A program made the position numbers and the translations under genes. This document shows, in pieces, positions 19,365 through 29,973 of a stretch of DNA of 64,000 nt (positions within the stretch are counted from its first letter, which is position 1; the number at the start of each line of letters is the position of its first letter). The DNA comes from Aminobacterium sp. MB27-C1 (lineage in GTDB: Bacteria > Synergistota > Synergistia > Synergistales > Aminobacteriaceae): positions 372,001-436,000 of the forward strand of contig NZ_CP133089.1 of NCBI RefSeq assembly GCF_030908405.1, in the 5' to 3' direction. The notes beneath the pieces are model-generated. The model had not been told where the DNA came from, ran no database searches, and saw nothing but the letters and a program-made list of their open reading frames with translations.

Positions 19365-19400
19365 CCCTCATAGGCTTAAAGCTTGTGAGGGTTTTATTTT
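19365..19400 (+). terminator. Terminator or attenuator abutting the tupA ribosome-binding site
   Basis: CCCTCA (19365-19370) pairs with TGAGGG (19386-19391), with weak inner pairing, followed by TTTTATTTT. Only a few bases separate the T-run from the tupA AAAGGAGG, so no promoter fits between them; read-through must be needed for tupA expression. Confidence 0.7.
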
Positions 19401-20325: not shown

Positions 20326-21021
20326 ATGGATTATATTTCTCAAGGAATTTTAAAAGCCTTCAGTCTTCTTTTATCTGGTGATGCACAGACATGGTCTGCT
20401 ATTGTAACTACATTAAAGGTGTCATCTCTTTCTATTTTCCTCACTCTTCTTATTGGTATTCCGGCAGGTTTTTTTCTCGGGAGCGTTCCTTTTCCGGGGA
20501 GGAATATTATTCGAACCTGTGTTGACACGCTCTTGGCTCTTCCCACAGTGGTTGTAGGATTGCTTGTTTATTCTTTTATCTCCAGACGGGGTCCATTGGG
20601 ATCATGGGGATTGCTTTTTACAACTGAAGGCATTGCTCTGGGACAAATTGTATTGGGATTACCTATAGTCGTAGCTCTTACCGCTTCTGCTATCGAAGGA
20701 CTTGAAGTGCAACTCCGCCAGACACTTCTGACTCTTGGAACAACAAAGAGACAGCTTACATTAAGTACTCTATGGGAAGCTCGTTATGCTGTTATAGTTG
20801 CCGCAATAACAGCATACAGTCGTATTATTTCAGAGGTGGGAGTGTCAATGATGCTTGGTGGCAATATAAAATGGCATACTCGTACTATAACAACAGCTAT
20901 TGCGCTTGAAACAGGCAAGGGCGAGTTTGCTATGGGCATCGCTTTGGGTTTGGTTCTCTTATCACTTGTTTTAGTGGTCAATTTGATGCTTGCTGAGTTT
21001 AAGCGGAGGAGTGCGGCATGA
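20326..21021 (+). CDS. tupB: Tungstate ABC transporter permease
   Basis: 231 residues, with about five to six membrane helices. VVTTLKVSSLSIFLTLLIGIP and the coupling-loop motif TLGTTKRQLTLSTLWEARYAVIVA are typical of TupB/ModB permeases. GGAGG lies upstream of the ATG. Its stop overlaps the tupC start by 4 nt (ATGA). Confidence 0.9.
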   Translation: MDYISQGILKAFSLLLSGDAQTWSAIVTTLKVSSLSIFLTLLIGIPAGFFLGSVPFPGRNIIRTCVDTLLALPTVVVGLLVYSFISRRGPLGSWGLLFTTEGIALGQIVLGLPIVVALTASAIEGLEVQLRQTLLTLGTTKRQLTLSTLWEARYAVIVAAITAYSRIISEVGVSMMLGGNIKWHTRTITTAIALETGKGEFAMGIALGLVLLSLVLVVNLMLAEFKRRSAA

Positions 21022-22043
21022 GCTCTATATATTCTCTTAAAAAAGTCAGACATTTTTATAGCGGACGTTGTGTGCTCGACATCCCAGATTTAGATATAGA
21101 GCAAGGTGAAATAATAGGACTTCTCGGTGCTAATGGTAGCGGAAAAAGTACCCTTCTTCGCATTCTTGCTTTTCTTGAAAGGCCGACAGAAGGTGAACTC
21201 TATTTTAAAAACAGAAAAATAGAAACTTTCTCGGTGGAAGATCGAAGATCAGTAACGCTCTTGTTGCAAGAGTCATATCTTTTGAAAAGAACGGTATGGG
21301 AAAACGTTGCTTTTGGTTTAAAAATACGTGGAATCAGTGGTAAGGAATTGTTTAAAAGGGTGGAGCAGGCTCTTCTTTTTGTTGGTCTTGAACCTGAAAA
21401 TTTTGCGAAAAGAAAGTGGTTTGAACTCTCTGGAGGAGAAGCTCAACGTGTTGCTCTTGCAAGTCGCCTTATATTAAGACCTCAGGTTTTACTTTTAGAT
21501 GAACCCACAGCTAGTGTCGACCAAAATAGTGTCGATTTAATGAAGCAATCTATCAAAGTTTGGCGAGAGAAATGGGGGACAACTATCTTTCTTGTTAGCC
21601 ATGACGATATTTGGATTAAAAGTCTCGCGGACCAAATTATGAGCTTATCGGAAGGGAAACTCTCTTTTTCCGCACGTGATAATCTCATAAAAGGGATTTG
21701 GGAAAAAAAGGGAGACATGGCAAAACTTTACTTGCAAGATGGACAGGTGATCACCTCTTCTGTTTTTCCTGAAAAGGGAGAAAATCTTTATATTAATCCT
21801 TCCGCTATTGTTCTCTCGGTAAAAAAGGTAGACGGAATTTCGGCTCGGAATTCTCTGTATATGCTTGTTGACAGTCTTACATATGAAAATGGCAACAATT
21901 GTGTTCTTGTTACACTTTCTGTGAGGGGCCTCACCCTGGTTGTTCGAATAACTCCTGAAGCGGCCCAGGAACTCAATATTGTTCCTGGAATGTATGTTTG
22001 GGCTTTTTTTAAAGCGACATCATTTCATACTTCCCAATATTAG
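21018..22043 (+). CDS. tupC: Tungstate ABC transporter ATP-binding protein
   Basis: 341 residues. Walker A GANGSGKST, Q-loop LLLQESYLL, signature LSGGEAQRVALA, Walker B VLLLDEPTASVD and switch His in LVSHDD are all present. The C-terminal 110 residues form a separate domain (ALTV-type beta pattern ending NIVPGMYVWAFFKATSFH) resembling the TOBE/Mop fold that senses oxyanions. It is the last gene of tupABC. A GGAATTT-g-AAATTCC hairpin at 22120-22135, with following T residues, probably ends the transcript. Confidence 0.9.
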   Translation: MSSIYSLKKVRHFYSGRCVLDIPDLDIEQGEIIGLLGANGSGKSTLLRILAFLERPTEGELYFKNRKIETFSVEDRRSVTLLLQESYLLKRTVWENVAFGLKIRGISGKELFKRVEQALLFVGLEPENFAKRKWFELSGGEAQRVALASRLILRPQVLLLDEPTASVDQNSVDLMKQSIKVWREKWGTTIFLVSHDDIWIKSLADQIMSLSEGKLSFSARDNLIKGIWEKKGDMAKLYLQDGQVITSSVFPEKGENLYINPSAIVLSVKKVDGISARNSLYMLVDSLTYENGNNCVLVTLSVRGLTLVVRITPEAAQELNIVPGMYVWAFFKATSFHTSQY

Positions 22044-22119
22044 TTTTTTTGAATAATGGACGCAATATACACTTTTCAGTTGGGTTGTACAGTTTTTATT
22101 CATGTGATAGCATGAACGT

Positions 22120-22140
22120 GGAATTTGAAAATTCCTTTTC
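22120..22140 (+). terminator. Terminator after tupABC
   Basis: GGAATTT and AAATTCC form a short hairpin followed by TTTTC, 77 nt after the tupC stop. Confidence 0.5.
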
Positions 22141-22142
22141 TT

Positions 22143-22250
22143 CAGTTCATCACCTCTATGGAAAAGTTTGAGGGGCCAAGAGATGACAATAATGGAACCC
22201 CTCTCGAAAAGAAAACTGCCGGCCGCTTTCCGAGGGGGAGCGGCTTTTAT
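22143..22250 (+). ncRNA. Structured leader RNA with switchable terminator before the hydrogenase operon
   Basis: Nested pairings are visible: CAGTT (22143-22147) with AACTG (22214-22218), TCATC (22147-22151) with GATGA (22182-22186), and GAGGGG (22170-22175) with CCCCTC (22198-22203). A terminator follows: GCCGCT (22222-22227) with AGCGGC (22239-22244), then TTTTAT. Its loop repeats GAGGGG (22232-22237), so CCCCTC can pair with either copy, which is the logic of an attenuator. It matches no riboswitch class I know. It may act on the hydrogenase genes 180 nt downstream. Confidence 0.45.
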
Positions 22251-22425
22251 CTATATTGATGATTTTTCTGTGTCTTTTGTATGGAAAATACGTAATATGG
22301 TTTTTTTCTAAGATTGTGAAAGAGATAGCAATTAATGTTGCTATCTCTTGTTCTTCATAAAGAGCATTTGCTTTGAGAAAAAGTTCCCGAAGTCATTTCG
22401 GGAGTTCACAACAAGGAGGGGAATC
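22251..22425 (+). other. Hydrogenase operon 5' leader with two further hairpins
   Basis: No gene is visible here. A 12-bp perfect stem AAGAGATAGCAA/TTGCTATCTCTT (22320-22331 and 22338-22349) has a weak T-run after it. A second hairpin TCCCGAA/TTTCGGGA (22385-22403) lies just before the AAGGAGG of the first hydrogenase gene, where it could influence translation. Confidence 0.5.
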
Positions 22426-22896
22426 ATGTCACAGGTGGAGTTGGAACGAATCCAGAAAACGCGGGAAATTGTGGCTCCTTGGAAGGGAAAGAAAGGTGGT
22501 CTCATTCCTATTCTCCAGGAAGCTCAGCACGAATTCGGGTACCTGCCCCCCGAAGTCATGGAAACAATCTCCAAAGAGCTTAAGATTGCAAAAGCTGAAA
22601 TTTATGGAGTAGCGACATTTTATGCACAGTTTCATTTGAAACCACGGGGCAGACATGTTGTTCGAGTTTGTCGAGGAACGGCTTGCCACGTTCGTGGCAG
22701 TTTGAAAATCCTTGACAAGGTCAAAGAGCTTACAGGCGTTAGCGAAAACGAAACAACTGATGATTTACGATATACGATAGAGCCGGTCGCCTGCCTTGGT
22801 GCATGTGGACTAGCCCCTGTCATGATGGTAGATAACCAGACTTTTGGACGTCTTGCCCCTGACATGGTGGCCGGAATACTTGCTAAGTTCGAATAA
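22426..22896 (+). CDS. hndA: NAD-linked hydrogenase subunit, [2Fe-2S] NuoE/HndA-like
   Basis: 156 residues from the ATG with AAGGAGG upstream. It has the NuoE/HoxE fold: HEFGYLPPEVMETISKELKI, then the four [2Fe-2S] cysteines in CRGTACH and CLGACG. This subunit passes electrons to or from the FMN/NADH subunit. It is the first of six hydrogenase genes spaced 3-21 nt apart. Confidence 0.88.
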   Translation: MSQVELERIQKTREIVAPWKGKKGGLIPILQEAQHEFGYLPPEVMETISKELKIAKAEIYGVATFYAQFHLKPRGRHVVRVCRGTACHVRGSLKILDKVKELTGVSENETTDDLRYTIEPVACLGACGLAPVMMVDNQTFGRLAPDMVAGILAKFE

Positions 22897-29218: not shown

Positions 29219-29677
29219 ATGAGAGTATTCGTTGCAGGATTTGGAAATCCTTTTCGCGAAGATGATAGTGTTGGCTTATTTCTTGCCCCTCGAATTGCCA
29301 GTTGGCTTGAAGGTTGCGGAGTTGACGTTGAGTTGTGGACTGGGCAACAACTTTTGCCAGAATTGGCATATGATCTTGAAAATGTTGATTTAGTTTTATT
29401 TATAGATGCTGATGTAAGACCGTTACCTGAAGGGTGTATACTTGAGCAGGTTATGTCAGATTCATCTCTTGAAGGATTGAACATACATTCAATGGGGCCT
29501 GCATGGTTGCTTTCTTTAATGGATCGTCTTGACATGAAGCAGCCAGAAACTTGGTTGCTTTCTGTTTCAGGATATTCCTTTAATTTTGCAGAGACACTTA
29601 CTGAACAGTGCCTATCAGATGCTCATAAAGCAGAAGAAGCTTTTCATAAGTGGTGGAAAAAACGAGAGGAGGTTTAA
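29219..29677 (+). CDS. [NiFe] hydrogenase maturation protease (HoxW/HyaD family)
   Basis: 152 residues. The family motif FGNPFREDDSVG at the N-terminus carries the metal-binding acidic residue; DADVRP (about residues 62-67) and NIHSMGP (about 91-97) supply the other Ni ligands. These endopeptidases remove the C-terminal extension of the large subunit after nickel insertion. The gene lies directly behind hoxH. AAAGGAG precedes the ATG. Confidence 0.87.
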   Translation: MRVFVAGFGNPFREDDSVGLFLAPRIASWLEGCGVDVELWTGQQLLPELAYDLENVDLVLFIDADVRPLPEGCILEQVMSDSSLEGLNIHSMGPAWLLSLMDRLDMKQPETWLLSVSGYSFNFAETLTEQCLSDAHKAEEAFHKWWKKREEV

Positions 29678-29685
29678 TTTTAATT

Positions 29686-29973
29686 ATGTGTAAGGTTATA
29701 ACTCCAGAATCAACAGAAGGACATCTTCATGTTCATGGTCCGTTAGAAGAAGCTGAATTGCTTCGTGAAACAATTGCTGAAGAATTGGAAGGAATGACAA
29801 GTCTTGTTGCCAGATGGCATGCGGTGGAAGGTCATGAGGCTAAACATGCCTTTCTTCACGCCATCGAATCTAAAAAAGCAAACTTGAAAAATTTATGGGA
29901 AGCACTGGAAAAACTAGAAGAAAGCTTATTTTCAGAGGCTGAGCATGAGCATTCCCATCATCACCATCATTAA
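29686..29973 (+). CDS. Small His-tailed protein of the hydrogenase cluster
   Basis: 95 residues from an ATG 13 nt after AGGAGG; the upstream in-frame ATG at 29650 lies within the protease gene and has no RBS. The body is a predicted alpha-helical acidic protein (EAELLRETIAEELEGMTSLVARWHAVEGHEAKHAFLHAIESK, shown here only in part) with several His residues. The tail EHEHSHHHHH is a likely Ni2+ site. I do not recognise a family; position and tail suggest nickel storage or delivery for hydrogenase maturation. Confidence 0.65.
   Translation: MCKVITPESTEGHLHVHGPLEEAELLRETIAEELEGMTSLVARWHAVEGHEAKHAFLHAIESKKANLKNLWEALEKLEESLFSEAEHEHSHHHHH

Follow-up and report, generated by a model that had tools for sequence, protein, structure and literature searches.

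A conserved, genus-restricted leader with the predicted anatomy of a transcription attenuator precedes a NiFe hydrogenase operon in Aminobacterium

Introduction

In Aminobacterium sp. MB27-C1, the tungstate transporter operon tupA, tupB, tupC is followed, after a gap of 382 nt, by a NiFe hydrogenase operon, and the question raised by this locus is whether RNA transcribed from the gap acts as a switch for the hydrogenase genes. The window, the whole stretch of DNA analyzed here, spans 64,000 nt (contig positions 372001-436000 of NZ_CP133089.1) and belongs to genome G000; coordinates below are window positions. A preliminary description had proposed a riboswitch or attenuator in which a C-rich stretch chooses between two G-rich partners. 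Judged from sequence, the gap holds a conserved leader, restricted to the genus, that is built like a transcription attenuator. Conservation of the leader in all three available genomes of the genus (the window's own, G000, plus G001 and G002) makes it probably a real on/off switch.

Locus and promoter

The hydrogenase operon encodes a NuoE/HoxE-like subunit, a 2Fe-2S ferredoxin, NuoF-like and NuoG/HoxU-like proteins, and small and large NiFe subunits that most resemble VhuG and VhuA; these subunit names are approximate, as several scores fall under curated cut-offs. A search with the NuoE-like protein gave a match in 54 of 59 genomes (the window's own counted), and among the 30 returned loci, whose upstream regions we inspected, the leader was present only in G000, G001 and G002, each time 3′ of tupABC. 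It lies in the tupC-hydrogenase intergenic region of all three genomes (in G000, inside the 382-nt gap), where much of the sequence around its elements has diverged. Several neighboring features were recorded alongside. TupC of G000 (21018-22043) has a C-terminal TOBE domain, which its orthologues in G001 and G002, shorter by ~110 residues, probably lack. Just 5′ of the tupA ribosome-binding site, a hairpin followed by a T-rich run (19365-19400; CCCTCA...TGAGGG TTTTATTTT) is a possible operator or second attenuator; G002 has a similar hairpin of other sequence there, and G001 an A/T-rich one. Finally, a 107-residue protein encoded 3′ of the hydrogenase genes (29650-29973) ends in the His-rich tail HEHSHHHHH, had no Pfam or NCBIfam match, and perhaps functions in nickel handling.

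A three-genome alignment showed conservation of an upstream block, a promoter, the motifs ACCTCTA, GAGGGG and CCCCTCT, and a terminator. The predicted promoter (22085-22113, + strand) combines a −35 TTGTAC (22085), a 17-nt spacer and an extended −10, TGTGATAGCAT (22103-22113), and takes the form TTGTAC-N17-TAGCAT with extended TGTG throughout the genus; transcription would be expected to start near 22118-22121. Because this conserved promoter lies upstream, transcription probably begins 5′ of the terminator, and hydrogenase start sites confined to positions 3′ of 22250 appear unlikely. The combination of a TTG box with an extended −10, separated by a 16-18 spacer, occurred in 8 of the 30 hydrogenase upstream regions, whereas mononucleotide-shuffled regions gave 0.05 loci on average; the eight comprise the three genus genomes and five others. 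A sigma-70 consensus scan gave no + strand match in 21700-22600, the predicted promoter not being among its matches, and no extended-type promoter was found between the terminator and the hydrogenase ATG. Two loci with the promoter, L006 (G022) and L025 (G056), have almost identical upstream regions despite belonging to different families, which suggests a binning error or very recent transfer.

Immediately 5′ of the promoter, a 27-nt block (22046-22072, + strand) varies within the genus only at its 5′ edge and is a possible activator site. Across 81 family genomes, the 22-nt core of the block gave no exact match at any other site. The block was rejected as a regulon motif; the six matches with three mismatches, in another genus, looked coding by eye. 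Over the −10 box itself, a near-palindrome, CATGTGATAGCATG (22101-22114), is likewise invariant in the genus.

Architecture of the leader

Indexing the sequence bore out the two elements at the heart of the initial proposal, GAGGGG at 22170-22175 and CCCCTC at 22198-22203, together with a downstream terminator containing a second GAGGGG, here placed at 22221-22249 with the motif at 22232-22237. We number four segments, all on the + strand. Segment 1, ACCTCTA (22152-22158), is invariant in all three genomes, and its CCTC pairs with the GAGG of segment 2, GAGGGG (22170-22175), which is a partner of both segments 1 and 3. Segment 3, CCCCTCT (22198-22204), is in turn a partner of segment 2 (off) or of segment 4, GAGGGG (22232-22237), which lies in the loop and 3′ arm of the intrinsic terminator (22221-22249, + strand; an 11-bp stem at 22221-22245 and a T-rich tail). 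With ACCTCTA able to pair with the first GAGGGG, the predicted pairings can add up to an attenuator-type 1:2 / 2:3 / 3:4 ladder. Further downstream, the hydrogenase Shine-Dalgarno and ATG (22413-22428, + strand) hold another GAGGGG (22416-22421, + strand, within AAGGAGGGG at 22413-22421) within reach of segment 3.

Spacing is nearly constant across the three genomes from the −10 box to segment 1 (38, 38 and 40 nt), between segments 1 and 2 (11, 12 and 12 nt), and from segment 3 to the U-tract (40, 39 and 40 nt); it varies in the loop between segments 2 and 3 (22, 26 and 36 nt) and from terminator to ATG (181, 175 and 77 nt). Pairwise identity in the leader core was 52/86, 60/86 and 56/90 aligned columns. 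In a hand-set alignment, the two segments named beforehand were identical at 13 of 13 positions, versus 28 of 66 columns outside (p = 7e-5), and in the unedited MAFFT alignment all three segments were identical at 16 of 20 positions (p = 0.003); these statistics are modest because only three sequences enter them.

Other parts of the initial proposal fared less well. The outer stems said to enclose the first pairing did not hold in the MAFFT alignment: CAGTT/AACTG pairs at 5/5 positions in G000 and at 2/5 and 1/5 in the two relatives, and TCATC/GATGA at 5/5 in G000 and at 2/5 and 4/5 in the relatives. Moreover, TCATC/GATGA spans 22147-22186 and so crosses the GAGGGG/CCCCTC pairing as a pseudoknot instead of enclosing it. 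Of two later hairpins, the one proximal to the ribosome-binding site (22384-22404, + strand) recurs in all three genomes with different stems; the other (22320-22349) is degenerate in G001 and absent from G002.

Folding of the leader

The folding energy of 22143-22425 was lower than that of all 200 dinucleotide shuffles (z = −4.78), with the terminator and later hairpins contributing. When the leaders were shuffled 2000 times each, a 6-base Watson-Crick word able to pair with both an upstream stretch and the terminator arose in 18 shuffles for G000 and in 27 for G001. For G002 the figure was 120 of 2000, and the word was not GAGGGG/CCCCTC, because the G002 terminator reads AAGGGG.

When growing prefixes were folded, all three genomes gave the same predicted order: 1:2 before segment 3 emerges, then 2:3, then the terminator. 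The 3:4 pairing was transient in these folds, reaching 2.45 expected pairs in G000 and 4.56 in G001; it comprises 6 bp in those two genomes and 5 bp in G002, where it is absent from the prefix ensemble and the partner of segment 3 is the foot of the terminator 5′ arm. The off state was favored over the on state (1:2 plus 3:4) by 12.6-15.2 kcal/mol; termination should therefore be the default, and activation must act during transcription, through kinetic trapping or a bound factor.

RNAalifold returned the 2:3 helix and the terminator as the consensus of the three sequences, and marked no pair in either as changed on both sides; the outermost terminator pair differs among the genomes (G-U, A-U and G-C). 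One-sided changes and broken cells in 2:3 reflect a one-column misalignment of G001, since GAGGGG and CCCCTC occur verbatim in all three. A third helix, predicted close to the 5′ end, contained two changes on both sides. As the pairing core is invariant in the three sequences, covariation neither proves nor refutes it. For G001 and G002, the minimum-energy fold of the whole leader instead joins segment 3 to the Shine-Dalgarno region of the hydrogenase operon; this predicted contact could supply a further, translational level of control, or could simply follow from the recurrence of GAGGGG.

Distribution of the leader

The pattern ACCTCTN{6,20}GAGGGGN{10,40}CCCCTC gave nine matches in 8 of the 81 family genomes, three of them the genus leaders, which occur once per genome. 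The other six (three near-identical, from g3) were provisionally taken as chance; a reversed control pattern also matches. A sequence-only model built from the three leaders hit 6 of 180 genomes of the order, scoring the genus leaders at 72-79 bits; the three weak matches (17-22 bits) were discounted as chance because none keeps GAGGGG intact. Neither the pattern in the 81 family genomes nor the model in the 180 order genomes thus found the leader outside the genus, although the strict filters of such large searches could miss a diverged relative.

Across 110 hydrogenase upstream regions (some contigs counted twice), a terminator scan reported a terminator-like hairpin in 12, three of them from the genus; for G000 the reported hairpin was a later one. 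Among its sequences, L015, L016, L029, L045, L053, L059 and L060 were inspected, and L064 and L065 left out. L053, L059 and L060, from Synergistota MAGs, share a different long leader, from ~230 to 80 nt 5′ of the NuoE-like gene, that contains a TCCCTGTGG...CCGCAGGGA hairpin as well as a conserved stretch.

No Rfam family reached its gathering score, and scans of the window, the leader and two relatives at gathering and permissive thresholds gave no relevant match, in keeping with the initial view that no nameable riboswitch class fits. The accessible portions of the literature on hydrogenase-operon attenuators and riboswitches, on Synergistetes riboswitches, and on Aminobacterium and hydrogenase do not describe this leader.

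A model for attenuation and its alternatives

We place moderate confidence in the reading that the leader is a cis-acting, genus-specific transcription attenuator of the NiFe hydrogenase operon, off by default and opened when segment 2 is occupied. Transcription would start near 22120, and in the emerging RNA segment 1 would pair with segment 2 first; segment 3, once out, would displace segment 1 and take up segment 2, leaving the terminator free to fold and releasing an RNA of ~130 nt. Were segment 2 instead occupied, by a putative factor recognizing the 1:2 hairpin with its conserved loop UA-GGA-A or alternatively by a ribosome using GAGGGG as a Shine-Dalgarno sequence, segment 3 would pair with segment 4 and polymerase would continue into the hydrogenase genes. 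An intrinsic terminator does lie between the predicted promoter and the first gene in all three genomes. GGA occurs in the 1:2 loop of all three; CsrA, considered as the factor, was set aside, PF02599 being present in G000 and G002 and not in G001.

The pairings might instead be by-products of G-rich and C-rich stretches, the promoter yielding a small RNA with its 3′ end at 22250, or the terminator simply stopping read-through from tup. In each of the three genomes the stable fold is the terminator, GAGGGG resembles a common Shine-Dalgarno sequence, and tupC lies upstream in every case, so that the terminator could also serve tup. However, the hydrogenase genes would then have no recognized promoter of their own, given the sigma-70 and extended-type scans above, and segments 1, 2 and 3 have stayed conserved while the sequence around them diverged; we regard this explanation as unlikely.

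Slightly more doubtful is a ribosome-mediated attenuator, in which segment 2 would be the Shine-Dalgarno of a leader ORF, segments 1 and 3 would imitate the anti-Shine-Dalgarno, and translation or 30S binding would part segments 2 and 3 and block termination. An ATG does follow GAGGGG after 7 nt in G000, 7 nt in G001 and 11 nt in G002, and the weak candidate ORF of G000 (22183-22311, + strand; 42 codons, starting 7 nt 3′ of segment 2) passes through the terminator, as does that of G001. In G002, however, the Shine-Dalgarno spacing is poor and the ORF, of 11 codons, ends before the terminator. The ORFs differ in length, in frame at segment 3 and in sequence, and the encoded peptides (42, 30 and 11 residues) have no single-amino-acid run and little in common beyond what the shared DNA forces, so we found no conserved leader peptide with regulatory codons. 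A further candidate starting at ATG 22112 was rejected as untranscribed, its start lying inside the −10 box. Ribosome-mediated attenuators of the trp type combine a 1:2, 2:3, 3:4 ladder with a short leader ORF. The Aminobacterium leader shares the ladder and possibly the ORF, but differs in having no conserved leader peptide or amino-acid run, and in that one of its pairing segments doubles as the proposed Shine-Dalgarno.

More specific, and quite improbable in our estimate, is the idea that an RNA switch reporting redox state, metal or hydrogen has replaced a Rex-like DNA operator in the genus, with the 1:2 hairpin binding a dedicated protein or a small molecule. Rex acts on DNA. Relatives such as L005, L006, L008 and L022 carry after the −10 box a palindrome that we call Rex-like by what we take to be the Rex consensus; no such palindrome was seen at this place in the genus, where the leader begins instead. 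As at Rex-controlled hydrogenase promoters, control would be exerted at the same promoter and on the same genes, and all three genus genomes encode a Rex-type DNA-binding domain. The near-palindrome CATGTGATAGCATG could be an operator, or what is left of the relatives' Rex-like site.

A metabolite or metal riboswitch, in which a ligand (nickel, tungstate or molybdenum cofactor, or a redox signal) stabilizes one pairing, draws on the NiFe hydrogenase encoded by the operon, the preceding tungstate transporter and the conserved stretch around segment 1, but is very improbable: it lacks an Rfam match in the window and two relatives, is found once per genome and, in the genomes searched, only in the genus, and has no conserved multi-helix aptamer, the core of the three sequences showing no covariation and the outer stems failing in relatives.

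Discussion

The attenuator half of the initial proposal stands on the conserved promoter, the alternative pairings, the terminator and the near-constant spacing; a riboswitch in the strict sense, with a covarying aptamer and intact outer stems, does not emerge. The signals first suggested, nickel, tungstate or redox, came solely from the gene neighborhood, and our analyses lend them no support.

Among known systems, Rfam riboswitch families resemble the leader in having a terminator, and differ in that none of them scores at its gathering threshold here. Protein-dependent transcription attenuators, for example the B. subtilis rplJL leader (PMC4538822), likewise place competing hairpins 5′ of an operon, one outcome being an intrinsic terminator; the operon here is non-ribosomal, and the likeness is one of form.

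Collectively, these results set a predicted attenuator in one genus beside related genera that, where inspected, carry a Rex-operator-like site after the promoter. If the replacement proves true, the locus would be a clean case of RNA-level control taking over from DNA-level control in an operon of hydrogen metabolism, and the leader is small enough for in vitro testing.
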